From an uncultured Elusimicrobiales bacterium (lineage in GTDB: Bacteria > Elusimicrobiota > Elusimicrobia > Elusimicrobiales > Elusimicrobiaceae): a stretch of DNA of 64,000 nucleotides. Within the stretch, counting starts at the first letter, position 1, and each line of letters begins with the position of its first letter. Location of the stretch: contig CALVGG010000001.1 in NCBI GenBank assembly GCA_944327085.1, positions 310,001-374,000 on the forward strand, read 5' to 3'. The notes beneath the pieces are model-generated. The model did not search any database and was not told the DNA's origin. It saw nothing but the letters and a program-made list of their open reading frames with translations. Positions 11,712 to 24,148 of the stretch are shown here, one piece after another. The translations under genes were made by a program, and so were the position numbers.

Positions 11712-13298
11712 TTACCTGGTCCAAGGGAACAATTTTTTTAACAAAGGAAAACGCCCAGAGAAAGGATCGTCCATCTCGGTAGCTAGGATAGGAATAGCCA
11801 CATTACTACGCGTGCAATATTGTGAAAGAGATTGTGGTTCCAAGTCTAGATCTCTAGCTAATTTCTTTAAACTCTTTTTGTATCCTAATTTTTCATAAAT
11901 AATTTTTAAATTACACATATATGCTTTGGGCCTATATTCGGCCAAGTCTAGGGCTTTTTGCGCATCTTTTAATGCAGCTTTATAATTCCCTAATATTTTA
12001 TATGTTTCACTGCGATTGTGGTAAAAAACATCAATATCATTACATCCTTCTTGGTTATTTATGGCTTGGTCAAACATACGCAACGCCTCTTCATAATTCC
12101 CCTCTACTAAATAAATCAATCCTAAATTATTATAAGAATAAGCATCTTCAGGTTTGGTAAAAACATAGGGTTCTAAAATTTCTTTAGCAGCCGCAAACTC
12201 TCTTTTTGATATCAACCGCATTGCATCAATGGGTGGGTCTGGCTCCCGGCAAAACAACCCACAGAACAATCCCAGGCATATAGTTAGTACTATTATGGTG
12301 TTTTTTAACGGAAACCGAGGACGAATATAATCATATTGCTCAAAATCCGCACAGTGATACTCTGTTTCCAGTAGTTGTTTTACTTCTTCAAAATGATTCA
12401 CAATGTCGTTAATATTGTTAAGGCCCACTAAAAAATCGCGCAGTTTTACATGGAGTCTCTCATTCTGCCAACCAAAAACATGCACCCATTGGATATTGTG
12501 CCTACTGTCTACACTAATTACCATATTTACAGTATTGCGTTTTCCGTTCTTCCAGTATTGCTGCCAATATAAAGCTAATGAAGTAGGCGCATTTTCGAGC
12601 AAAATAAAATTAAGTTTAATGTGTTTAGTTCGAAACCAACAGTTATAATCTTCTGTTTCTATTTCCAGATTTTCTACATCCTCTCCTCTTACTGTGCCAT
12701 ATATCTCACGCGGGCTATAGGCTTGTAAGTGATATTTTTTAACATCCTCTTCAGATAATTGAGCAACTTCAAACATATTGGGCGCCTGTAAAGTAGGATT
12801 ATAGTAATCTTGCTCAATATAATGGTAACAAAGCGTTTGATAGGTTCCAGGCCAAGTTGTATAGTAACATAGGCCTGGATTAATAATTTCTCCTCGGGCT
12901 TCAAAACCATGCTCCGCTTGTGTATGATACTCATTACCAAATGTTTCTACATAACCTATATATGCACCATGAGAAATGCAGAGCGGGGTAGGATCTTCAT
13001 CTACAACTATCTCCCACTCCGCGGGATGTTCTACGGTTTCATAAGTTACTTTTTTCGTGTTTTTATCTTCATGCCGGATCCGTTCCGTCCACTCCGTAAA
13101 ATAGCGGGCTTCCTTTACATAAGTTCCTATATATTCTTCATCCTGTGCTTTGAAACTATTAATTGTTCCACACACCCAAATAACTAGCCAAGCAAAAAGG
13201 GAGCCACCTATTAAACCTAAAATTCCCAATGCTTCCCAGCCCATTATATGAGGGATAATAATTAAAAGCCCCAAGCCATAAAAGAACGACACTACCAT
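11712..13298 (-). CDS. Membrane-anchored TPR protein, last gene of the SAM-riboswitch operon
   Basis: A 528-residue protein with two hydrophobic helices at the N-terminus (about 3-45), a long soluble middle part of unknown fold (50-335), a further membrane segment near 341-362 (TIIVLTICLGLFCGLFC) and C-terminal TPR repeats (about 370-490). The clearest repeat unit contains AYSYNNLGLIYLVEGNYEEAL. The final residues have a short Trp-Thr-Arg end. Its ATG overlaps the stop of the LemA-like gene (TAATG), so the two are coupled. TPRs usually bind protein partners, so it may be a membrane scaffold for the operon's other products. No enzymatic motif is visible. Confidence 0.7.
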   Translation of the reverse strand: MVVSFFYGLGLLIIIPHIMGWEALGILGLIGGSLFAWLVIWVCGTINSFKAQDEEYIGTYVKEARYFTEWTERIRHEDKNTKKVTYETVEHPAEWEIVVDEDPTPLCISHGAYIGYVETFGNEYHTQAEHGFEARGEIINPGLCYYTTWPGTYQTLCYHYIEQDYYNPTLQAPNMFEVAQLSEEDVKKYHLQAYSPREIYGTVRGEDVENLEIETEDYNCWFRTKHIKLNFILLENAPTSLALYWQQYWKNGKRNTVNMVISVDSRHNIQWVHVFGWQNERLHVKLRDFLVGLNNINDIVNHFEEVKQLLETEYHCADFEQYDYIRPRFPLKNTIIVLTICLGLFCGLFCREPDPPIDAMRLISKREFAAAKEILEPYVFTKPEDAYSYNNLGLIYLVEGNYEEALRMFDQAINNQEGCNDIDVFYHNRSETYKILGNYKAALKDAQKALDLAEYRPKAYMCNLKIIYEKLGYKKSLKKLARDLDLEPQSLSQYCTRSNVAIPILATEMDDPFSGRFPLLKKLFPWTR

Positions 13299-13795
13299 TA
13301 AATGTTCTCCTTGCCGCTGGCATAAACACTTTCTGTATAATCCGAAGTAATAACTGTAATTTTTATTTCTTCAGCATTTGGAAGTATCATGCATACTGGT
13401 ATGCTATGAATATAAACACTATGTTCTTTTTGACGAGCTATTAACAAACGTTGTTGGGAGAAAAATTCCTGACGATTGGCTTCTATCTCAGTTGATAATT
13501 GACGCAATATGGACGAATCTAACGGAGGGTTTTGCTCTATAATCAATGAAATATCTTTTCCTTGATAACGTCCCGAAATAAGCTTTGGGTAGATTTCCTT
13601 AAATGTTTCCAAATATGTATCAGAAACATGTGTAACCTGTTTAATTACCTTCCACATTTTGTCAAAATTGGCTTCACACACCTCCTGTTGGGCCAACACT
13701 AAGTTACGGAGGCGTATTTCAGTATTATGTACAGAAATAAAATACCCAACAATTACTATACCAATTAACAATAAAATAAATACTCCTGATGTCAT
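13298..13795 (-). CDS. LemA-like membrane protein
   Basis: A 165-residue protein: one N-terminal membrane helix (residues 3-20) followed by a helical domain. The segment beginning YFISVHNTEIRLRNLV, with the following EVCEANFDKMWKVIKQ, resembles the LemA family pattern, in which a single membrane helix is followed by long antiparallel helices exposed outside the cytoplasm. The start is set at 13795 because AAAGGAGGAAAT lies just before that ATG; the open frame extends 25 codons further without support. Its role in the bacterial cell is poorly known for the whole family. Here it sits between a lipoprotein and the membrane TPR protein. The match is by pattern, not by search. Confidence 0.6.
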   Translation of the reverse strand: MTSGVFILLLIGIVIVGYFISVHNTEIRLRNLVLAQQEVCEANFDKMWKVIKQVTHVSDTYLETFKEIYPKLISGRYQGKDISLIIEQNPPLDSSILRQLSTEIEANRQEFFSQQRLLIARQKEHSVYIHSIPVCMILPNAEEIKITVITSDYTESVYASGKENI

Positions 13796-13845
13796 ATTTC
13801 CTCCTTTACTCCTGAATGTGGCCCGGAAGAACCCGGGCCCGAATA

Positions 13846-14181
13846 TTACTTTAATTCTTTCATCATGCAATCATAATATTTTTGGGAATCGTATTGAACC
13901 CGTTCTGAAATTTGCTGATTTTTCATGCGTGAGTGTTTTTTACAGATTTTAGAAGCCTCCTCTATTTGTTTATCTACTTCTTTTTGTATTTCTTTTTGCT
14001 CCAATGCTTGCCCATCAATGGGGATAAAGCGGCTTTTACGACTAAATTGATACAAAGTAAACAGATTATCTACCTTGGTTTCTACCAAATAAGTTCTTCC
14101 ATTTACTGTGGCTATATTATGGTTAATTCCTGCTGCACATCCCACCAACAGTAAAGGTGTCAGCAATAATACATTTTTCAT
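13846..14181 (-). CDS. Small predicted lipoprotein
   Basis: A 111-residue protein with a lipoprotein signal peptide: MKNVLLLTPLLLVGCAAG, lipobox LVGC with the modified Cys at residue 15. The mature part is charged and helical in its second half (EQKEIQKEVDKQIEEASK) and carries two further cysteines. GAGGAGGGATAGT precedes the ATG, a strong ribosome binding site. It lies 16 bp after the preceding gene and about 50 bp before the LemA-like gene. It probably sits in the inner or outer membrane next to the other envelope proteins of this operon. No family recognised. Confidence 0.7.
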   Translation of the reverse strand: MKNVLLLTPLLLVGCAAGINHNIATVNGRTYLVETKVDNLFTLYQFSRKSRFIPIDGQALEQKEIQKEVDKQIEEASKICKKHSRMKNQQISERVQYDSQKYYDCMMKELK

Positions 14182-14197: not shown

Positions 14198-14710
14198 TTA
14201 TTTGGGCATTACCCCAAAAAACTGTTTTATATGTGTTTGTGGTTTACTCAAACAAATCTGGTGTAGGTTATATTGCAAAATATTTCCTATATTATGAGTT
14301 TCTAATCCTGGCCGAAAAAGTTTTCTAACCTCATCTTCCGTAAAAATAGCTTTAGCACGTTCTCGATAGCTTTCTGTGCATCTATCCCAAAAGCATGCAC
14401 CTCGTGCTGTTAGTGTCAACAAACGAAGTACAACAAATAGTTGCATATTTGTTAAATTATTTAGTTTGCTAAATAAAGCAAAGGCCAGGTGTTGGCTGTC
14501 CGGGTGGCGCAGGTTGGCACAAATATTTTCAAAATACTCTTTGTATCCATTAGAATAAATAGCACCTCTCTCTAGTTCGAGCCATTTACAACAGGCTTGG
14601 TATAATTCTTGGCAAGTTCTATATCCGGTAACTGACATATTATAAAGACTAGCCTTGCGTTGTTTATCCATTTGATAAAAAAATTTATTCAACTCTAAAT
14701 AAATATTCAT
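14198..14710 (-). CDS. Unknown 170-residue helical protein of the ClpX-like operon
   Basis: I do not recognise this protein. It has no signal peptide or membrane segment, is helical, has nine cysteines, and contains aromatic-rich stretches. A ribosome binding site AGGATATACAA precedes the ATG. It starts 9 bp after the stop of the ClpX-like ATPase, so the two are probably made together; an adaptor or substrate of the ATPase is one possibility. That role is only inferred from position. Confidence 0.6.
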   Translation of the reverse strand: MNIYLELNKFFYQMDKQRKASLYNMSVTGYRTCQELYQACCKWLELERGAIYSNGYKEYFENICANLRHPDSQHLAFALFSKLNNLTNMQLFVVLRLLTLTARGACFWDRCTESYRERAKAIFTEDEVRKLFRPGLETHNIGNILQYNLHQICLSKPQTHIKQFFGVMPK

Positions 14711-14719
14711 TTGTATATC

Positions 14720-16087
14720 CTAAATGACTACTTTTACCGATTTCTCTAAAAATTGTTGTTGAAATAACTGCCCTACTTTTTGCTGTAAACCTCGTGCGCC
14801 TAAGCGCTGTTCATAAGCGTAATCGACCATTTCTTCCACTAAAGCTGGCTGTATAGGGGTTGAGCTATTCAGGAGTTTTTTATATTGATAGATTGGCCCA
14901 TTGTGCGGGTTGAGCAAAATACGACGTAAATCCTCTTTTTCCAATGGGAGTAACTGAATAAAATAGGAAAAACGCCCCACCAACTCCGGTAACATCCCAT
15001 AACCGATATAATCATCAGCCGATAAAGTCGTGCGATATATACTAGATGTGTGCGTAAACCCGACTGATTTATCCATATGTTTTACTTGTAAAGATTCAAA
15101 CGCCCCGCCAACAACAAAAAGCACACGGGAAATATCCCACTCAATAGGACGATTAGAAAAATAATCTGGAGCAGTAAAAGTTTTTCCTTCAATTAATCGC
15201 AAGAGCTCTGCCTGGACATTACCGGAAGACACCCCCCAGCGTTCTCCTCCTTCATGTAATTTGTCAATCTCATCTATAAATACAATAGAAAGAGGCAGCG
15301 TGTTTTTGTTTTTTGCTAAAGATTGAAGGGGTTGTAAAATATTACTTACGCTCATACCCGCATATCCTGTTTGTGTGTATTGAGAAGCGTCTGCATGAAC
15401 AAAAGGTATTTTTAAAATACGAGCCAAACATTGACATAAATAGGTCTTGCCACAACCGGTTGGCCCACTGATAAAAATATTATTTTTTGTAAATGGGATA
15501 TCGCTACTTTGACTGCATTTGGCTAAATGTTCAAATACACCTGCTACCAACAGCTTTTTAGCTTCATATTGGCCAATTACATATTTATTCAGCTCGGACA
15601 TTACCTTCTTAGGTGAAAAAGTTCTCGGACTATCCTTCAAATGGGGGTTATTTTGCGTCGTGCCTATAAGTAAGTTTTGTATAACCTCTACTGCCCCGTT
15701 AGCTACGCGTAAAATTCCTTTTTTAAACAAGACACTATTTCCACTGAAAAGCGTTTCCAAGGCTACTGTCCGGCTACTAAAAGGGCTAGATTGCTGCAAT
15801 AAGTTAGGGATGCGATATGCTGCAGGGACCATGATTTTCAATAAATTTAAAGTAGAAAGATATAGTAACAAAAACCATTCCATTTCATTTAAAGCATCCT
15901 CTTTTACCAATTTGGCAATTGGAATCTTCTTTTCGTTTGACTTTATAATTCGTGAGCGAATTTCCTCAAACAGTTTGACACAGCTCTCCTGCGGAGCATG
16001 CTTTTCTAATTGGCTGTGCCACTGCGTTAATTGTTCTATCAACTGTACGAACGAGCCATATGGTTTATTCATAGCATTATTAGCCAT
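14720..16087 (-). CDS. ClpX-like AAA+ ATPase without the zinc domain
   Basis: A 455-residue protein whose C-terminal two thirds follows ClpX closely. It has Walker A GPTGCGKT, the pore-loop region ADASQYTQTGYAGMS (GYAG in place of ClpX GYVG), Walker B IVFIDEIDKL, the segment VLFVVGGAFESL, MLPELVGRF, and sensor 2 RLGARGLQQKVG. The first about 170 residues replace the ClpX zinc-binding domain with an unknown helical domain. The ClpP-docking IGF loop appears as VGF (KSVGFTH), so ClpP partnership is uncertain. The start at 16087 is chosen because GAAGGAGAAATTT precedes it; the frame continues upstream to 16186, but that stretch is read in another frame by a small ORF. Likely role: ATP-driven unfolding or remodelling. 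It is not the housekeeping clpX. Confidence 0.82.
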   Translation of the reverse strand: MANNAMNKPYGSFVQLIEQLTQWHSQLEKHAPQESCVKLFEEIRSRIIKSNEKKIPIAKLVKEDALNEMEWFLLLYLSTLNLLKIMVPAAYRIPNLLQQSSPFSSRTVALETLFSGNSVLFKKGILRVANGAVEVIQNLLIGTTQNNPHLKDSPRTFSPKKVMSELNKYVIGQYEAKKLLVAGVFEHLAKCSQSSDIPFTKNNIFISGPTGCGKTYLCQCLARILKIPFVHADASQYTQTGYAGMSVSNILQPLQSLAKNKNTLPLSIVFIDEIDKLHEGGERWGVSSGNVQAELLRLIEGKTFTAPDYFSNRPIEWDISRVLFVVGGAFESLQVKHMDKSVGFTHTSSIYRTTLSADDYIGYGMLPELVGRFSYFIQLLPLEKEDLRRILLNPHNGPIYQYKKLLNSSTPIQPALVEEMVDYAYEQRLGARGLQQKVGQLFQQQFLEKSVKVVI

Positions 16088-16199
16088 AAATTTCTCCTTC
16101 ATCAAATCCCCAAACAAACGGTTTATGGTTGTCAATAACAGGTATATAACCAGCCAAAGCTGCCATATAAGCAGTCCGAGAAACATATTTTTTCCCCAT
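16080..16199 (-). CDS. 39-residue ORF, first gene of the operon
   Basis: A short ORF beginning MGKKYVSRTAYMAALAGY and ending DEGEIYG. AAAGGAGAGG lies 6 nt before its ATG, one of the best ribosome binding sites in the window. Its stop overlaps the start of the ClpX-like gene by 8 bp, so translation of the two is coupled. It may be a functional micro-protein, or a leader peptide that only opens the downstream start. Its ribosome binding site is part of the hairpin at 16205-16236. No family recognised. Confidence 0.55.
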   Translation of the reverse strand: MGKKYVSRTAYMAALAGYIPVIDNHKPFVWGFDEGEIYG

Positions 16200-16236
16200 A
16201 AAAAACCTCTCCTTTGGAGTAACCCATTAGAGAGGT
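16199..16236 (-). promoter_or_regulatory. Hairpin covering the ribosome binding site of the small ORF
   Basis: On the minus strand ACCTCTC (16230-16236) pairs perfectly with GAGAGGT (16205-16211), then T's follow up to the ATG. The 3' arm is the Shine-Dalgarno sequence of the 39-residue ORF. The loop contains AATGGGTT, complementary to AACCCATT in the 5' arm of the terminator just upstream. The element could act as a weak terminator, as an RBS lock, or as a competitor of the terminator. Confidence 0.5.
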
Positions 16237-16239
16237 GGT

Positions 16240-16270
16240 AAAAAAAGAACCCATCGTCTCCAATGGGTTC
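16240..16270 (-). terminator. Riboswitch-controlled terminator (expression platform)
   Basis: GAACCCAT (16263-16270) and ATGGGTTC (16247-16254) form a perfect 8-bp stem followed by seven T's on the minus strand. The riboswitch P1 3' strand CAATGGG (16296-16302) is exactly complementary to CCCATTG in the 5' arm and loop of this terminator. P1 formation (SAM bound) therefore frees the terminator, and loss of P1 forms an antiterminator. Predicted behaviour: off with SAM, on without SAM. Confidence 0.85.
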
Positions 16271-16295
16271 TACTCAAAATAAACTAATTGTAGCT

Positions 16296-16380
16296 CCCAT
16301 TGTGCAAGCTTTAGCACCTTACGTTTAAGCAGGTTGCTGTGCAGTCATCAGGCTTGTCCCTCGTGCACTCTCAATAGGAA
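16296..16380 (-). ncRNA. S-box (SAM-I-type) riboswitch aptamer lacking P4
   Basis: The minus strand carries the S-box core in order: GAGAG, GAGGGAC, AGCC-GATGA, CAGCAACC, AGGTGCTAA. Helices are P1 TTCCTATTG with CAATGGGAG (two G-U pairs), P2 GTGCA (16364-16368) with TGCAC (16339-16343), and P3 ACCT (16331-16334) with AGGT (16316-16319). The P2 loop CAAGC (16352-16356) pairs with GCTTG (16305-16309), the expected pseudoknot. The P4 hairpin of classical SAM-I is absent; after P3 the RNA goes straight to the pseudoknot partner and P1, as in the SAM-I/IV variants. A terminator/antiterminator follows. Unusually, the controlled genes are not methionine or SAM metabolism genes. Confidence 0.85.
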
Positions 16381-16567
16381 TTGCCGTTATCTTGCGGAAG
16401 GAACAATTCCTAACTTTATCCAATAAATCCTCAAACGGATATACTTGGTACAACTTTTCCTAGGAATTGGAACTTTATAGATCAGTTCTATAAATCTTCC
16501 GAAAATAACGTTATGAATTAATGATTTTCAAAAAACGACAGCTTAGTGTCTTTTTTGTATCCTTTAT
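16380..16567 (-). promoter_or_regulatory. Upstream half of the long leader, several hairpins
   Basis: Between the promoter and the riboswitch the minus strand can fold TTTATAGA-ACTGA-TCTATAAA (perfect 8-bp stem, about 16470-16494) and GGAATTG with CAATTCC (7 bp). The 3' arm of the latter abuts and partly overlaps the 5' strand of riboswitch P1, so the two could compete. Near the transcript start a GACA-CTAAGC-TGTC stem, flanked by six A's and six T's (16530-16556), looks like an intrinsic terminator readable on both strands. No ORF with a ribosome binding site is seen here. Confidence 0.45.
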
Positions 16568-16573
16568 AGATAT

Positions 16574-16602
16574 ATTATAGCATCTATTTTGGCTTCTGTC
16601 AA
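16574..16602 (-). promoter_or_regulatory. Consensus sigma-70 promoter of the riboswitch operon
   Basis: TTGACA (16597-16602), a 17-bp spacer and TATAAT (16574-16579) on the minus strand: a perfect match at both hexamers with ideal spacing. Transcription should start near 16567, about 370 nt before the first ORF. Such a strong promoter implies that the operon is held down by other means: the riboswitch terminator and perhaps the WYL regulator. Confidence 0.85.
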
Positions 16603-16648
16603 TGAACAACACCAAGCGACATTATTGTGTCTTTATAATAAAAAATTA

Positions 16649-16677
16649 TCTTTTAAATCACTGTTAAATGTCGTTTT
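16649..16677. repeat. Repeat shared with the WYL promoter, candidate WYL operator
   Basis: On the plus strand TCTTTTAAAT (16649-16658) and TTAAATGTCGTTTT (16664-16677) recur, fused, as TCTTTTAAATGTCGTTTT at 17771-17788 over the WYL gene promoter. This copy lies about 50-75 bp upstream of the -35 of the operon promoter and overlaps the last codons of the WYL gene. A further inverted GCGACATT is at 16616-16623. It is a candidate operator bound by the WYL protein at both promoters. Confidence 0.45.
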
Positions 16678-17749
16678 TATCTTCTTTGTTTATATTTTGG
16701 TCAATAATAGAAGAAAAAGACGGTGTTTTGGCGGCAGAATTAGAGCCAGAAATAAAAAATTTAGGTTCTTTTTCAGGATTTGAGGGAAGAGCGGGGGTGT
16801 GTGCAGCGGATGAAGTTGGGAAAGAGGCTTTATCCAATGAAACTGAAACATCGGATGTAGTGGTTGAATTATTGATACCCGCTACCAAGGTCAGGTTGTC
16901 TACGCTTGCAGAAGCAGAGGGGGCAAGAGGGTTGCTTAGTTTTTCAAGTTGTACTGAAGCCTGCTCCAGTATTGCTTCAGGATCTAAAGGAGCTTGCGCG
17001 GCAGGAGCCGGAATAGGAGCTGGACCTGGTACCAGCACTCCAGTAAGAGCCTCTTTATCTGGGTTTAAGTCTTCTACCCACTGATGGGCTTGTTGCCAGA
17101 TGGCCCATTGGGCAAAAGGAATCGGACTAAACTGACTATATCCGATAGAAGTTTTATTATCTGCATATAAGGAAAAAGTCCCAATATTGTCCAAGGAATA
17201 GTAAGAACATTCACCACCAGGAGAAACAGATGCTATATAATATTTATCCCATAAGCGCAGCATTTTGTAAGGGTATAAGGTACGGCTTTTTTTGCTGTTT
17301 TTAAGGGAAATTCTTAAATGGCAATGGTATTTAATACACTTTAATACCATAATGGCCGTTTCATCCGTTTCAGAAAAATCTTCCTTACTGACTCCAAACT
17401 GGCAATTATCAAAAGAAAGAGGCTCAAAACGTTTAGATATTTGGGATAAAACAGGTGCAAAAGATTCTCCGATTTGTTTAGCAATGTCCACTGAAACTAC
17501 CATTAAAGCGGCCTCTTCACATGAAAGGCCTATATGTCCTAAAGAAAATCCTCTCGCCAGAGCATATACACTTTGCTGGGGAGAGACGACCGGAAACTGG
17601 GCTTGCCATAAAAGTCCCATATCGCGCTGAATAGTACGAATAGAAACCCCAAACCGAGTGGCCAAATCAGGTACAGTAATAGCATTTTGCTCTAACAAAG
17701 TTAATATTTGGGAAATTCGTTTAGTTTTACTAGCAATTTCTTTAGACAT
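16664..17749 (-). CDS. WYL-domain transcriptional regulator with a long C-terminal tail
   Basis: A 361-residue regulator. It has an N-terminal DeoR/HTH_11-type winged helix (about 10-60, with VPDLATRFGVSIRTIQRDM), then a WYL-like domain (about 135-215) with LYPYKMLRLWDKYYIASV in the position of the WYL motif. From about residue 235 a low-complexity tail rich in Pro, Ala and Ser follows, which ordinary WYL regulators lack. WYL regulators such as BrxR and CapW repress phage-defence operons and respond to nucleic-acid signals. The promoter overlaps the start: TATAAT ends 6 nt before the ATG, so the mRNA is leaderless. The gene is directly upstream of the riboswitch operon in the same direction, and both promoter regions share a repeat. 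Confidence 0.8.
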   Translation of the reverse strand: MSKEIASKTKRISQILTLLEQNAITVPDLATRFGVSIRTIQRDMGLLWQAQFPVVSPQQSVYALARGFSLGHIGLSCEEAALMVVSVDIAKQIGESFAPVLSQISKRFEPLSFDNCQFGVSKEDFSETDETAIMVLKCIKYHCHLRISLKNSKKSRTLYPYKMLRLWDKYYIASVSPGGECSYYSLDNIGTFSLYADNKTSIGYSQFSPIPFAQWAIWQQAHQWVEDLNPDKEALTGVLVPGPAPIPAPAAQAPLDPEAILEQASVQLEKLSNPLAPSASASVDNLTLVAGINNSTTTSDVSVSLDKASFPTSSAAHTPALPSNPEKEPKFFISGSNSAAKTPSFSSIIDQNINKEDKNDI

Positions 17750-18668: not shown

Positions 18669-19745
18669 ATGATTGATAGGATTAAAGGTGGTATTGAACC
18701 AGAAAATGTAAAAGAATTGTGGCCTGGGGCGATAGAGGCCTTGAAAGCCCAGAGAATTAAGAATCCCCACAATAAACCTGTAGTGTCTTATCACAGCAAA
18801 AAACAACAGGTTGTATTTGATGTAGCCGCACCAAGATGTTTGTTTGGCAATAACCTGGCGGAAGCCACGGATGCGGACTTGGATGAGTTAGTGACAGCTA
18901 TTCAATGCGAATTTACCAGAAACGGTGTAGATGTGCCCAAAGAAGCGATATATAACGCACAGATTTATTATTTGGAGTATGGAAAGAACATTATTTTGCC
19001 TATAACTACTTCCATGCCCGCCTTGTTCAAGCGGTTTGGGAAGGGGTTAACTAAAGGATATAATGCGCTCGAATTTCATCACTATAGAAAAGACAGAAGA
19101 GACGGGTATAAAGTGGGTATAAGCCTGGACAACAGAGACATCGCTTTTTATGACAAAACAACCAAGGAAATAGTTGGAAAGAGCCTATATAACAAGGAAA
19201 ACAAAGAAATCTATGGCAAGTTGCTAGGGCAAGGAAAGCAAGTGCTTAGGTATGAAGTCACTTTTTATAGTAGCCCTTCCGTAAAGGCAAATTTATCCAA
19301 GTTTAAGCAATGTAGTGGAAATTTTACATTACGGGAAGTGTGGGATAGTAAATTAGCCAGGGAGTTACTGGTAAGCTTCTCTAATGAGGTGCTAAACAAT
19401 TTACCCCCTGCTGGGTGTTCCAAAGAAGCAGAACTAAGGCAGATAAAAGAAGCCATAAGGGGCGGATTCTCCACTAGCGATATTCTCATATACAAAGGGT
19501 TGGGAAATCTAGAAAAAAAGTTGGGAGCCAATACCGTTAAAGAAATGTTTAATCCTATTGAAGAGAGATACGCTGGAGGGAAAAAGCAATATATGCAGTA
19601 CAGCGACGCAAAGAAGAAACAAGAGAAGTTAGCCGCATATTTTAAGCCTAGGCGGGCCCAGACAATGAGAAAAATCAAACGGACGATTAAAGATTTTAAG
19701 CCTATTCGGGTGGATATGAGGACCAAAGAAATAATCGATTACTAA
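18669..19745 (+). CDS. Replication-initiator-like protein of a mobile element
   Basis: A 358-residue protein that resembles phage/plasmid replication initiation proteins of the gene II/X (Phage_CRI) type. It has a central IAFYDKTTKE segment, a conserved VLRYEVTF strand downstream, and a basic C-terminus (KPRRAQTMRKIKRTIKDF). Such proteins nick a double-strand origin to start rolling-circle replication. GAAGGAG lies 11 nt upstream of the ATG. Iteron-like repeats lie in the preceding 300 bp and an XRE regulator follows 23 bp downstream. I infer it replicates the excised form of the island. The match is by pattern and is moderate. Confidence 0.55.
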   Translation: MIDRIKGGIEPENVKELWPGAIEALKAQRIKNPHNKPVVSYHSKKQQVVFDVAAPRCLFGNNLAEATDADLDELVTAIQCEFTRNGVDVPKEAIYNAQIYYLEYGKNIILPITTSMPALFKRFGKGLTKGYNALEFHHYRKDRRDGYKVGISLDNRDIAFYDKTTKEIVGKSLYNKENKEIYGKLLGQGKQVLRYEVTFYSSPSVKANLSKFKQCSGNFTLREVWDSKLARELLVSFSNEVLNNLPPAGCSKEAELRQIKEAIRGGFSTSDILIYKGLGNLEKKLGANTVKEMFNPIEERYAGGKKQYMQYSDAKKKQEKLAAYFKPRRAQTMRKIKRTIKDFKPIRVDMRTKEIIDY

Positions 19746-19768
19746 CAGGGATATACAAAGGAGCAAAA

Positions 19769-19954
19769 ATGGATAACTTAATTAAACAGTTGGAAGACTA
19801 TAGACTTAAAAACAGACTTACACAGGCGGAACTGGCCCAATTATTGGGGGTTTCTTATGTGTCGATCAACAAATGGCTTAACGGGCATACGCGCCCCCAA
19901 AAGTTACAAATTTATCAGATTGAGCAATTAATAAGCACAGGGGGACAAGGATGA
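19769..19954 (+). CDS. Small XRE-family HTH regulator
   Basis: A 61-residue protein consisting of little more than one helix-turn-helix (LTQAELAQLLGVSYVSINKWLNG). AAAGGAG precedes the ATG. It follows the rep-like gene by 23 bp and likely controls that operon or acts as the immunity regulator of the mobile element. The region 19955-20202 after it holds no clear gene, only a very short ORF at 19951. Confidence 0.75.
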   Translation: MDNLIKQLEDYRLKNRLTQAELAQLLGVSYVSINKWLNGHTRPQKLQIYQIEQLISTGGQG

Positions 19955-20202
19955 AGAAGAGGTGTGTATATTATGTAAGAATAAGTAAGGTTAATAGATA
20001 TAGATAAATAATAGACATAAGTAAAGAAGATACAGGTGTATAGTGCCAAGGGTACAAAGTAGACTTGGCAAGATTACAGGGTAATCTTTAAATAGGATTT
20101 AGAAAGATATAAGAAGACAATTTAGAGATGCAGGGAAGGAATTAATCTTATGATTACTATATCCTTCCAGGGTTAAAAGCAATAGTGAATAAGGAAAAAA
20201 TT

Positions 20203-20409
20203 ATGGAATATGACTCAAAAACTTTAATGGATGTAAATGAAGTAGCCGCGTATTTACATCTTTCCCCTTCAACCGTTTATTCTAAAAGAGCGCGTGGGGA
20301 ATTTCCAAAAGGCAGTATCGTGAAATTATTTGGGAAATTACTTTTTAAGCGGGAAAAGATAGAACAACTGGTGGAAGATTCTATAGAACCTTCCTTTGGG
20401 ATCTATTAA
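20203..20409 (+). CDS. Excisionase/AlpA-like HTH_17 DNA-binding protein
   Basis: A 68-residue MerR-like winged helix of the HTH_17 class (LMDVNEVAAYLHLSPSTVYSK, with GKLLFKREKIEQLVE as the wing and the helix after it). Proteins like this next to a tyrosine integrase are usually excisionases that direct the integrase to excision. I set the start at the ATG 20203 behind AAGGAAAAAATT rather than the upstream GTG at 20185. It is followed by the integrase about 280 bp downstream. Confidence 0.7.
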   Translation: MEYDSKTLMDVNEVAAYLHLSPSTVYSKRARGEFPKGSIVKLFGKLLFKREKIEQLVEDSIEPSFGIY

Positions 20410-20420
20410 AATCGTCTTGG

Positions 20421-20585
20421 TTATTTGGTTTGTTCTGCTTCCAAAAATCTTTTAAGAGCCAACCGAATAACCGAAGACAAATTACGGTCTTCCCGCTGGG
20501 CATACTCCTGCGCCTGAGCTAAAAGTTCAGCAGGAAGCGTAAAACTTACCGTTTTTGTTTTTTGCTTGTTATCTTGTTCAGACAT
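20421..20585 (-). CDS. Ribbon-helix-helix (CopG/Arc-type) repressor-like protein
   Basis: A 54-residue protein with the RHH pattern: a beta strand KTKTVSFTLPAELL, then two helices (AQEYAQREDRNLSSVIRLALKRFLE). It is transcribed away from the integrase, so the AT-rich interval 20586-20686 with its inverted repeats is a shared control region. It may repress the integrase or be an orphan antitoxin; no toxin gene is adjacent. The start is set at the second Met (MSEQ). Confidence 0.7.
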   Translation of the reverse strand: MSEQDNKQKTKTVSFTLPAELLAQAQEYAQREDRNLSSVIRLALKRFLEAEQTK

Positions 20586-20628
20586 ATATAGATAATAGCA
20601 CATTTGATTAGATATGAAAACATAATAC

Positions 20629-20656
20629 TTGACAATATAAAATAATATTATATAGT
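20629..20656 (+). promoter_or_regulatory. Integrase promoter
   Basis: TTGACA (20629-20634), a 16-bp spacer and TATAGT (20651-20656) precede the integrase, whose GGAG ribosome binding site lies about 10 nt before its ATG. The -10 region lies in an AT-only near-palindrome (about 20642-20672) that the divergent RHH protein might bind. Confidence 0.6.
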
Positions 20657-20686
20657 ATTATAATATAATATTGGAGAATATTTGAT

Positions 20687-21703
20687 ATGAAAATTTATCG
20701 TAATAAAAAAGGATTGTATGGAATTGATTATAATGACGAGACAGGAAAGAGACACCGGAAGATTGTCGCCACAAGCGAATCTGCCGCAAAAGAAGAATTA
20801 GCGAAAAGGACGAATGCTTTCTACAAAGCAAAAAATAATCCGCAATTAATGCAGGAAAGCCAGTTATTCAAAGATTTAGCCCCCTTGTTTATTCAACATC
20901 ATATAGAACTGTTACCTTCAAAACAAACCTATCTGGCTATGTTTAAGCAGATTTTAAACCATTTCGGCAGTTATGCCCTAAAGGCAATTACTCCCTTGGA
21001 AGTACAAAGTTTCTATAACCAAAAAGCCTTGGCAACATCCTACTCGAATGCAAATCGATACTTAGGTATTATTAGCAAATTTTTCAATTGCTTAAATGAT
21101 TGGGATAAATACAGTGGCCCCAATCCCTGCCGTAAGGTTAAAAAACAAAGCGACCCTGAACCTTTTAATCCCCGTCCCATAAATGAACAAGAGATTAAAA
21201 CGCTTTTGCCCTATCTAAGCAACGAAACCCGCCCTTGTGTAACGATTGGGTTTTATACAGGGCTCAGACGTCAGGAATTATTAGGCCTCCGCTGGGAAAA
21301 TATAGACTTTGTTCATCGGACGATCTATATCCCTAAAACGAAAACAAAAAATTCGCGCACGTTAGGTTTAACAGGAGACCTTGAACAGATTTTGCAAGGC
21401 TTGCACCCGCAAAAACAAGGATTGGTCTTTGCACAAGTAACGGAAGACAAATTAAAATATCAATTGAATCAAGCCGCTAAAAAATCTGGGGTAGGGCATA
21501 TTCGCCCGCACGATATGAGGCATTCTTTTGCAGTTAATTTCCTAAACCGCGGGGGATCACTAGAACATTTACAACGTTTATTGGGACACAATAAAATCAC
21601 CACTACGCAACGTTATTTGCGCTTTAAAACAGGAGAGATTGCCAGCAAAATGATGGTAATGGATGGAATGATTCCATTAGATATTGTAAGAGGGAATTTG
21701 TAA
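20687..21703 (+). CDS. int: Tyrosine recombinase (phage-type integrase)
   Basis: A 338-residue site-specific recombinase. An N-terminal arm-binding domain (MKIYRNKKGLYGIDYND) is followed by a SAM-like core-binding helical domain (about 60-160) and the catalytic domain. The catalytic residues are visible: Arg in TGLRRQELLGLRW, HxxR in HDMRHSF, His in LLGHNKITTTQ and the nucleophile Tyr in QRYLRF. It is full length. It presumably inserted the island into the tRNA-Val gene whose 3' part is at 24239-24286, about 2.5 kb downstream. Confidence 0.92.
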   Translation: MKIYRNKKGLYGIDYNDETGKRHRKIVATSESAAKEELAKRTNAFYKAKNNPQLMQESQLFKDLAPLFIQHHIELLPSKQTYLAMFKQILNHFGSYALKAITPLEVQSFYNQKALATSYSNANRYLGIISKFFNCLNDWDKYSGPNPCRKVKKQSDPEPFNPRPINEQEIKTLLPYLSNETRPCVTIGFYTGLRRQELLGLRWENIDFVHRTIYIPKTKTKNSRTLGLTGDLEQILQGLHPQKQGLVFAQVTEDKLKYQLNQAAKKSGVGHIRPHDMRHSFAVNFLNRGGSLEHLQRLLGHNKITTTQRYLRFKTGEIASKMMVMDGMIPLDIVRGNL

Positions 21704-21705
21704 TC

Positions 21706-21747
21706 TACGCACAAACTACGCATTTTTTGCGTAGTTTATGTTATAAT
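21706..21747 (+). promoter_or_regulatory. Promoter and phased operator of the first fic gene
   Basis: Two direct TACGCA half-sites (21706-21711 and 21717-21722) and one inverted TGCGTA (21728-21733) are spaced exactly 11 bp apart. The second and third form a 10-bp inverted repeat AAACTACGCA / TGCGTAGTTT with a five-T loop. An extended -10 (TGTTATAAT, hexamer 21742-21747) follows immediately, so a bound repressor would block the promoter. The winged-helix C-terminus of the Fic protein itself is the likely ligand. Confidence 0.6.
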
Positions 21748-21767
21748 AGGTTAATAGAGGAACTGTT

Positions 21768-22859
21768 ATGTATATTTATCAAAACGAAAATTGGCCACAC
21801 TTCACATGGGATAAACCCAAGATTTTAGCCCGGCTTGCACAGGTCAAACTGGCCCAAGGGCTGTTGCTGGGTAAAATGCAAAATATTGGATTTGCCATGC
21901 AAGACAGCGCCTTGCTTCAAACCCTTACAGAAGAAATTTTAAAATCCAATCAAATTGAAGGCCAACTATTAGACATCGCACAGGTGCGCTCCTCTATTGC
22001 CCGGCGGTTAGGGTTGCCTAATGAAGATATTCCCGTGGATCGCAATGTAGATGGCACGGTAGAAATGATGTTAGATGCCATCCAACACTATAACGCTCCT
22101 GTTAATAAAGCACGTTTATGCGCCTGGCACAAACATATGTTCCCAGATGGGAAGAGCGGCTTTTATACCATTCAGACGGGGAATTACCGAGATGATGCTT
22201 TGGGCCCCATGCAAGTGGTATCTGGCCCTATGGGGCAAGAAAAGGTTCACTATCAAGCCCCGGATGCTCCTCTTTTAAATGCCGAAATGGAAAAATTATT
22301 TCACTTTATCAATACGGATGAAATGGATGACGTCCTTAAAGCCGCTATCACGCATTTGTGGTTTGTTATTTTACACCCGTTTGATGACGGTAATGGACGT
22401 ATTGCCCGTGCCTTAAGTGAATTATTATTAGCCCGGAGTGAAGCCTCTGCCAACCGGTTCTATTCCATGTCATCCCAAATAGCCAAAAATCGTAAAGAAT
22501 ATTACAAACAATTAGAAATTACCCAACAGGGCGATTTGGACATCACGGAATGGATAGAGTGGTTTTTGCAAACCCTGGAGCAGGCTATTAAAGATTCTGA
22601 TGAACTTTTGAAAAATGTTTTGGCGAAAGCAACCTTTTGGAAGCAACACCAAGGGGAAGCCTTTAATGACCGCCAAAGCAAAATGCTTAATATGCTGTTT
22701 GATGGGTTTAAGGGTAATTTAACCAGCACTAAGTGGGCCAAAATCTGCAAATGCTCCCACGATACGGCCTCCCGCGACATATCCGACCTGCAACAACGCG
22801 GTATTTTAGAGAAAATTGGAGCAGGCAGAACGACACACTATAAACTGAAACAACTATAA
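21768..22859 (+). CDS. Fic-family AMPylator with C-terminal winged helix
   Basis: A 363-residue Fic protein. The active-site motif is HPFDDGNGRIAR (residues 203-214, His203 catalytic). The N-terminal DUF4172-like region carries the inhibitory motif SNQIEG (60-65), so this is a class II (self-inhibited in cis) Fic protein. The C-terminus (about 300-363) contains a winged helix (KWAKICKCSHDTASRDISDLQQRGIL). Such proteins transfer AMP to target proteins and often regulate their own gene. The gene is preceded by its own operator-promoter (21706-21747) and lies in the mobile region between integrase and attachment site, so it is accessory cargo. Confidence 0.9.
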   Translation: MYIYQNENWPHFTWDKPKILARLAQVKLAQGLLLGKMQNIGFAMQDSALLQTLTEEILKSNQIEGQLLDIAQVRSSIARRLGLPNEDIPVDRNVDGTVEMMLDAIQHYNAPVNKARLCAWHKHMFPDGKSGFYTIQTGNYRDDALGPMQVVSGPMGQEKVHYQAPDAPLLNAEMEKLFHFINTDEMDDVLKAAITHLWFVILHPFDDGNGRIARALSELLLARSEASANRFYSMSSQIAKNRKEYYKQLEITQQGDLDITEWIEWFLQTLEQAIKDSDELLKNVLAKATFWKQHQGEAFNDRQSKMLNMLFDGFKGNLTSTKWAKICKCSHDTASRDISDLQQRGILEKIGAGRTTHYKLKQL

Positions 22860-22907
22860 AAACCGCGACTTTAGTTGCGAGATACTTGAATTTCTAAATT
22901 TGCCTAT

Positions 22908-23000
22908 AAAATAGAAATTCATTTAAAGATATTTCTATTTTTTGCTTAAAAATAGAAATAAAAATTGATTTATTACTAAAAAAACCCTAAAATAGAAATA
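22908..23000 (+). promoter_or_regulatory. Promoter and repeated half-sites of the second fic gene
   Basis: Four copies of AAATAGAAAT occur at about 22909-22918, 22931-22941 (inverted, ATTTCTATTTT), 22950-22959 and 22990-22999. A promoter TTGATT, 17-bp spacer, TAAAAT (22987-22992) overlaps the last copy. The arrangement parallels that of the first fic gene but uses a different sequence, which suggests each Fic protein, through its own C-terminal winged helix, represses its own gene. Confidence 0.55.
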
Positions 23001-23014
23001 AAATATGGGAGATA

Positions 23015-24148
23015 ATGATGACACATTTCAATGCTGGTGTATATAGAGAGCGACTGGGTTATAAAAGTTTCTCTCCTTCTTTGATAAATAAACCTTTTGA
23101 GTTTTCAGACCCACAAATCAACATCCTTCTCGAAGAAGCAAGTCGTTCTATTGGGCAATTAAATGCCTATTCAGATTTTGAAGAAGTTAATATGGACCTC
23201 TTCATTAATATGCACATTTATAAAGAGGCTACGGTATCAAACAAGATTGAAGGAACACAAACCACCATAGATGAGGCCGTTAAACCAGAAGAATTAGTTG
23301 TTCCCGAAAGAAGAGATGATTGGAGAGAAGTACAAAATTATATCAAAGCCATTCATTTTGCCCAACAACAGCTAACAAAACTCCCCATTTCCACGCGGCT
23401 AATTATGTCTATTCACTCTATTCTTTTAGAAGGAGTGCGCGGAGAACATAAAAATCCAGGAGAAGTAAGAAGAAGTCAAAATTGGATTGGGGGTTCTTCT
23501 CCGAGCAATGCTTTTTTTGTGCCTCCTCATTATGAAGAACTTCCAGAATTGTTGTCTGATTTAGAAAAGTTTTGGCATAATGATAAACTTCAAATACCGA
23601 CTTTAATCAAAATTGCTATATTTCATTATCAATTTGAAACCTTACATCCTTTTTGTGATGGCAACGGAAGGATGGGACGCTTATTAATTCCTCTTATGCT
23701 GATGTCTTGTGGGGTGTTGTCTAAACCGTCTTTATATATATCAAGTTTCTTTGAACAAAAAAAGGGTATATATTATGACTCTTTGACAAAGGTAAGAACT
23801 CAAAATGATTTGGAACAATGGATAAAATTCTTTTTAACTGGAATTATTGAAACTTCCCAACAGGGAACGGTTACTTTAAGAAAATTAATTGCATATAGAA
23901 ACAAAATATATGCGCAAATAAAAACTCTTGGTGGAACCAGAACACAGAAAGCAGACAATATCATTAAGTGGATGTTTGGAAATCCTGTTGCTAACACACA
24001 AAACATCGTTGAAAAATTCCATTTTTCATATGGTATAGCAAATCGTTTGATGGGAGATCTGGAGAGGCTAGGGATTCTCAAACACAAAGATACTATTTCG
24101 CATAAAAAATACTATGAGTTGAATGGTTATTTAGACCTATTCAAATAA
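23015..24148 (+). CDS. Second Fic-family AMPylator with C-terminal winged helix
   Basis: A 377-residue Fic protein with HPFCDGNGRMGR (residues 211-222) and the inhibitory SNKIEG (75-80), again class II. The N-terminal part (RERLGYKSFSPSLINKPF) is the Fic_N type, different from that of the preceding Fic protein. The C-terminus has a winged helix (IVEKFHFSYGIANRLMGDLERLGIL). GGAGATA precedes the ATG. The gene is the last before the attachment site and has its own repeat-rich promoter. Its likely activity is AMPylation of an unknown host or phage protein, kept in check by the inhibitory helix. Confidence 0.9.
   Translation: MMTHFNAGVYRERLGYKSFSPSLINKPFEFSDPQINILLEEASRSIGQLNAYSDFEEVNMDLFINMHIYKEATVSNKIEGTQTTIDEAVKPEELVVPERRDDWREVQNYIKAIHFAQQQLTKLPISTRLIMSIHSILLEGVRGEHKNPGEVRRSQNWIGGSSPSNAFFVPPHYEELPELLSDLEKFWHNDKLQIPTLIKIAIFHYQFETLHPFCDGNGRMGRLLIPLMLMSCGVLSKPSLYISSFFEQKKGIYYDSLTKVRTQNDLEQWIKFFLTGIIETSQQGTVTLRKLIAYRNKIYAQIKTLGGTRTQKADNIIKWMFGNPVANTQNIVEKFHFSYGIANRLMGDLERLGILKHKDTISHKKYYELNGYLDLFK

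Follow-up and report, generated by a model that had tools for sequence, protein, structure and literature searches.

The minus strand of a 64,000-nucleotide stretch of DNA from an uncultured Elusimicrobiales bacterium (the window) carries a riboswitch aptamer of the SAM clan that lacks the P4 stem and lies just ahead of an operon encoding a ClpX-like AAA+ unfoldase (Table 1). Judging from the sequence evidence set out below, we consider it probable that this defence-linked operon stands behind a SAM-repressed, WYL-controlled gate that would open when SAM falls.

An earlier note on this DNA proposed a SAM-I-type riboswitch and suggested an Rfam search as a check. When cmscan was run, the SAM model (RF00162) matched positions 16380 to 16294 of the minus strand over its full length (model positions 1-108) with 58.8 bits and E 4.8e-11, above the gathering threshold of 44.4 bits, and within the SAM clan this family is Rfam's best match for the aptamer. 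A chance match is ruled out by the E value together with the relatives described below. The 87-nt aptamer contains P1, P2a/P2b, P3 and the core words, with CCUAUUGAGAG as the P1 5' strand and CAATGGG as the P1 3' strand, and its pseudoknot (PK-1) pairs CAAGC (16356-16352) with GCTTG (16309-16305). The 18 positions that make up the P4 region of the RF00162 model are reduced to 1 nt. The core words, P1, P2, P3, the pseudoknot and the missing P4 had all been pointed out in the earlier note. The 1.67-Mb genome has no S-box other than the window copy.

An Rfam search of the genomes of 60 close relatives yielded 13 further S-boxes in 10 of them, mostly scoring above the cut-off, with one at 43.5 bits lying below it. 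Each of the 14 aligned copies lacks P4 and keeps the core, and 94% of the cells for P1, P2, P3 and PK-1 are paired. Pairing in P2 and the pseudoknot reaches 100%, with changes on both sides of each element; PK-1, for example, occurs as CAAGC/GCTTG, CGAGC/GCTCG and CAGGC/GCCTG. In many of the copies, P1 pairing is poor beyond the core 4 bp, at 82% of cells. The core words, PK-1 as a pairing, and the AU/UA top of P1 are invariant across the alignment. This AU/UA top contacts the sulphonium in the SAM-I structure, and SAM is the presumed ligand here as well. The P4-less aptamer could instead have switched to SAH or another nucleoside and so would not report on SAM, as might be suspected from controlled genes that are not SAM genes and from a peripheral architecture unlike that of SAM-I, SAM-IV or SAM-I/IV. 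Given the invariant core words, PK-1 and P1 top, and a match to the Rfam SAM model above its cut-off, we regard such a change of ligand as highly improbable.

Comparison with the known classes places the RNA nearest to SAM-I. It shares with that class (RF00162) P1, P2 with a kink-turn-like loop, PK-1, P3, the core words and the terminator/antiterminator logic, and differs in lacking P4, in preceding genes outside sulphur metabolism, and in having a separate Shine-Dalgarno (SD) hairpin behind the terminator. SAM-IV RNAs likewise lack P4 and keep PK-1, and they carry a P5 stem-loop with a second pseudoknot, PK-2 (PMC6890682). Only 2-5 nt separate PK-1 from the P1 3' strand in the present copies, leaving no P5 there, unlike in SAM-IV, and the P3 loop is short and variable, with no PK-2 partner seen in a non-systematic look. 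SAM-I/IV RNAs have P4 and lack PK-1 (PMC6890682), whereas here PK-1 is present with covariation and P4 is absent, which sets these RNAs outside that class. Because P4 is absent and no PK-2 or P5 was seen, the RNA appears to be a P4-less variant of the SAM clan rather than a standard SAM-I riboswitch.

A covariance model built from the aligned P4-less relatives (R1) identified 38 P4-less S-boxes (90-111 bits) in 31 of the 149 genomes of the order, where their distribution is patchy. The same model found one S-box each in 12 genomes elsewhere in the phylum (341 genomes in total), with scores of 34-57 bits; the P4-less form was restricted to the order. Eleven of these 12 precede a cysteine synthase/HcyBio-type or threonine synthase/MoaD-like/NIL cluster, as judged from the proteins by eye, and so are canonical S-boxes ahead of sulphur and Met-branch genes; the remaining match, in G185, seems spurious. 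S-boxes usually control methionine genes. At the 38 P4-less loci, where many downstream genes have no known function, no recognised methionine, cysteine or SAM gene lies downstream. Metabolic S-boxes elsewhere in the phylum and non-methionine genes at these loci indicate that the order has a distinct P4-less kind, which we interpret as a separate, order-specific subclass. If this is correct, the SAM clan would gain a minimal architecture that dispenses with P4.

The expression platform would make use of both strands of P1. The earlier note had observed an exact complement of the P1 3' strand in the terminator 5' arm, CCCATTG (16267-16261), and this match is borne out. The terminator is the one terminator-like site within 16000-16800 (stem 16271-16246), and complementarity between the P1 3' strand and the terminator region has a z value of -3.1. 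Behind it, in nearly every copy, lies a second hairpin with the SD sequence as its 3' arm. The anti-SD arm of this hairpin complements the P1 5' strand plus GAGAG (the AGAG core); one example of hairpin 5' arm and loop is CUCUCUGUGG, complementary to CCAUAGAGAG. These arrangements suggest a double lock on transcription and translation. With SAM bound, we infer that P1 would be closed and the terminator would form, and any read-through RNA would have its SD hidden in the second hairpin. With SAM low, the P1 3' strand would pair with the terminator 5' arm as an antiterminator, and, ahead of SD synthesis, the freed P1 5' strand and AGAG could engage the anti-SD arm, so that both locks would open.

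Standard Firmicute S-boxes are controlled by a terminator alone. A possible, though doubtful, reading is that the first terminator alone also acts here, with the second hairpin serving as a back-up terminator or spacer and its complementarity to the P1 5' strand reflecting reused AUGGG/GAGAG words. The SD-like GAGAG itself resembles the AGAG core, and in ClpX-type copies a T-run (GAGAGGTTTTTT) follows the second hairpin. Moreover, equilibrium folding of the full leader keeps this hairpin closed (median 0.99), and SD access is low even in antiterminated RNA folded to equilibrium (median 0.13), so a translational lock must be kinetic, or weak in many members. However, short-leader copies retain the pairing of the second hairpin with both the SD and the P1 5' strand although this hairpin lacks a proper T-run, and copies G052 and G115b hold a 14-bp error-free match between the P1 5' strand and the anti-SD (AACCATAAAGAGCG:CGCTCTTTATGGTT). 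Across the copies this duplex has a mean z value of -2.9 relative to dinucleotide shuffles, versus -0.2 for other aptamer segments used as controls, and a copy's own pairs outdo swapped ones in all but 6 of 5000 permutations; both statistics overstate the significance, since the copies are related and not independent. In antiterminated folds calculated before the SD is made (P1 and terminator forbidden), the duplex reaches a median probability of 1.0 (mean 0.76). The constrained fold of the window copy gives it 0.38, and gives the antiterminator pairing only 0.02. We favour the double lock, with the second, translational lock probably present.

Two known arrangements resemble this double lock. 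The SAM-I switch of the Xanthomonas met operon also combines a SAM-I aptamer with a separate anti-SD hairpin for translation; that switch acts on met genes and also responds to uncharged tRNA-fMet (PMC7270179). Here, in contrast, the hairpin follows a T-run terminator, and its anti-SD is complementary to the P1 5' strand. The dual expression platforms of Barrick and Breaker, in which the SD lies inside the terminator (PMC2258182), similarly attenuate transcription and translation by a single switch, whereas the present RNA has two separate hairpins that would use the two strands of P1. If confirmed, this would be a leader whose two P1 strands separately govern termination and the ribosome-binding site.

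Table 1. Features of the riboswitch locus and its operon, in 5' to 3' order along the minus strand (positions are those of the window).
Feature	Position	Strand	Evidence or remark
HTH + WYL-type regulator gene, directly upstream	16664..17749	-	PADLOC WYL 3.5e-15; Pfam HTH_11 1.7e-7
Palindrome 1, GACACAATAATGTCG, probable regulator operator	16617..16631	-	2-match pattern search; conserved spacing
Sigma-70-type promoter, TTGACA-17-TATAAT with TG	16574..16602	-	12/12 consensus match
Palindrome 2, GACACTAAGCTGTCG	16536..16550	-	81 bp from palindrome 1
Structured 5' leader element	16382..16514	-	Closing stem CGUUAU..CGGAAG/CUUCCG..AUAACG, branched inside; folds in 12 relatives
P4-less SAM-clan riboswitch aptamer	16294..16380	-	RF00162 58.8 bits; own model R1 99.7 bits; covariation
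Intrinsic terminator	16246..16271	-	11-pair stem then T7; 5' arm CCCATTG complements P1 3' strand
SD-sequestering hairpin	16206..16235	-	Anti-SD CCTCTC, loop with AATGGG, SD GGAGAGG
Small ORF, 39 aa (MGKKYVSRTAYMAALAGYIPVIDNHKPFVWGFDEGEIYG), first behind switch	16080..16199	-	Homologues in relatives
ClpX-like AAA+ unfoldase, non-ClpX N-terminal domain	14720..16087	-	AAA_2 4e-19 (Pfam)
170-aa protein, probable standalone relative of ClpX-like N-terminal domain	14198..14710	-	Iterative profile search; weak direct match E 6e-4
Small probable lipoprotein, VGCAAG lipobox-like start	13846..14181	-	By eye; no family match
Membrane-anchored LemA-like protein	13298..13870	-	phrog_1383 2.3e-25; start probably near 13798
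Membrane protein, C-terminal TPR repeats	11712..13298	-	TPR_12 5e-13; phrog_2087 7e-18

Upstream of the leader, both palindromes that flank the promoter have the form GACAN6TGTC, and the pattern GACAN3-8TGTCG has just these 2 matches across the 64 kb. The pair is spaced 81 or 82 bp in ten ClpX-type loci, and a homologue of the WYL-type regulator is encoded upstream in 13 of the 17 ClpX-type loci. BrxR and CapW are WYL regulators that repress defence operons via inverted repeats (PMC9122601, PMC9122588). The HTH and WYL domains and the paired palindromes point to a regulator of this type, as do the placement of its gene upstream of a defence-linked operon and the inverted repeats near the promoter. 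The locus differs from the BrxR and CapW systems in adding a riboswitch and in having two probable operators that bracket the promoter at a distance of 81 bp from each other, through which the regulator would set promoter activity. Between the second operator and the S-box, the structured leader element has a variable interior with a conserved CCUAGGAAAA motif; it is reduced to its closing stem in G098, and is replaced in G025, G035b and G096a by another hairpin with a conserved UUUAAGCAGAAGUCUGGC loop. The terminator-type switch that the earlier note had placed before the operon is supported by the sequence, but that note left out the order-specific subclass, the second lock with its SD hairpin, the WYL regulator, the structured leader, the 12/12 promoter and the paired palindromes.

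The common gene order behind the switch is small ORF, ClpX-like protein, 170-aa protein, LemA-like protein and TPR protein. The operon had earlier been described as ClpX-like/LemA/TPR, which holds for the ClpX-like and TPR genes but overlooks the first gene, the small ORF at 16199-16080. Homologues of this ORF are 39-48 aa long (41-48 aa outside the window) and most end in FGYNDWDIYHG, with a few broken or divergent. The ClpX-like gene of the window probably starts at 16087, a start that overlaps with the stop codon of the small ORF. The LemA designation has two sources, the match to PHROG 1383, a family annotated as virion structural, and similarity judged by eye; the Pfam LemA model gave no match to the protein.

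The ClpX-like protein shares with ClpX the AAA+ module, the GYVG-type pore loop and the (V/I)GF tripeptide for ClpP, and the GYxG loop and VGF-type tripeptide are conserved among aligned homologues. It differs in that an unrelated domain of about 130 residues, with no Pfam match and without the zinc cysteines, replaces the zinc N-domain, and its identity to true ClpX is 33-37%. A single scan of the genome_contigs collection with this protein apparently matched only true ClpX genes (best 37% identity). The genome also encodes ClpP, to which the ClpX-like protein probably delivers its substrates. For the 170-aa protein, a predicted structure (pLDDT 88) has no fold match in the PDB; the protein is possibly an adaptor or competitor. 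A relative of it stands alone behind an S-box in G018.

A search with the N-terminal domain found ClpX-like genes in 17 genomes of the order, and an S-box lies just upstream in all 17, so the arrangement is not a one-off. The S-box could be a relic of a lost metabolic operon that was fused by chance to island genes, as its being the sole S-box of the genome and the frequent rearrangement of islands might suggest. We find this barely credible, and reject it on the 17/17 linkage; compensatory changes in the aptamer and intact terminators and SD hairpins in relatives also speak against it.

The placement of an S-box before non-methionine genes in a defence island, as claimed in the earlier note, agrees with this linkage and with the neighbouring genes. 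Downstream of the window operon lie a type III methyltransferase gene, a Dsr1-like SIR2 gene and a probable type III restriction gene, the last recognised by similarity to a gene in G098. In G098 itself, a type III restriction-modification pair lies upstream of the operon and an IetAS pair downstream, and HEC-06/Orf5-like DUF262 genes adjoin the operon in G016 and G029. Among the 17 loci, just a few had identified defence genes close by. In PADLOC, the operon's own proteins gave generic AAA matches only and no described anti-phage system. Searches of an open literature library turned up no publication that connects SAM riboswitches to defence genes.

Region 18669-24148 of the window, by the operon, encodes a possible replication protein, a tyrosine integrase (PHROG 1, 5e-60) and two Fic-like proteins, and is a probable integrated element. 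At locus L139 (G081), a copy of the operon adjoins terminase-, portal- and MuF-like phage genes (by eye), suggesting a prophage. The idea that the operon consists of prophage genes was rejected, as neither an exact S-box pattern nor the TPR protein found a counterpart in viral contigs; despite this, distant relatives occur in jumbo phages.

The purpose of the gate is most likely a response to SAM loss, caused for example by a phage SAMase or by methionine starvation, the latter being the simpler alternative to an infection cue. Phages make SAMases, such as that of T3, which disarm restriction (PMC7877911, PMC8406200), and a fall in SAM is therefore plausible as a sign of infection. The more specific proposal is that the riboswitch would act as an infection sensor, with phages that destroy or exhaust SAM releasing a ClpXP-like back-up defence beside SAM-dependent restriction genes, and with the double-locked leader silencing a costly operon; we rate this as unlikely. 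A tentative alternative is a metabolic operon, unconnected with phages, through which methionine supply would tune proteolysis or the envelope state. In its favour, the presumed ligand is of the SAM-clan type and some S-box operons include an FGase-type amidohydrolase; in addition, MetE- and MetH-type synthases were not found in this genome, so SAM may track methionine uptake. The WYL-type regulator and defence neighbours, the patchy distribution, and the 38 loci without a recognised methionine, cysteine or SAM gene argue against this alternative. The genome does encode MetK, and its presence, with no MetE- or MetH-type synthase found, also counts in favour of the SAM-repressed gate. Should the defence-linked gate prove correct, SAM riboswitches would extend from metabolic feedback to defence-linked protein quality machinery, the cell may use SAM loss as an alarm signal, and the idea that bacteria monitor the SAM pool as a sign of infection becomes testable.

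Other P4-less S-boxes in the order precede different genes. In most short-leader copies, the S-box begins directly after the -10 box. Five of these (L099, L105, L106, L154 and L161, in G035, G015, G034, G067 and G109) lie before a protein that carries a zinc-ribbon at its C-terminus and, by a very weak Pfam match, resembles a degenerate DnaA-type ATPase, and the zinc-ribbon part also stands alone behind S-boxes in G095 and G115. FGase-type genes (N-formylglutamate amidohydrolase family) recur in the sets linked to L146, L157, L156 and L161. Small proteins with a KFPxEF motif recur beside S-boxes L105, L149, L101 and L107 (G015, G084, G018 and G028), and in G034 one is encoded upstream of the S-box.
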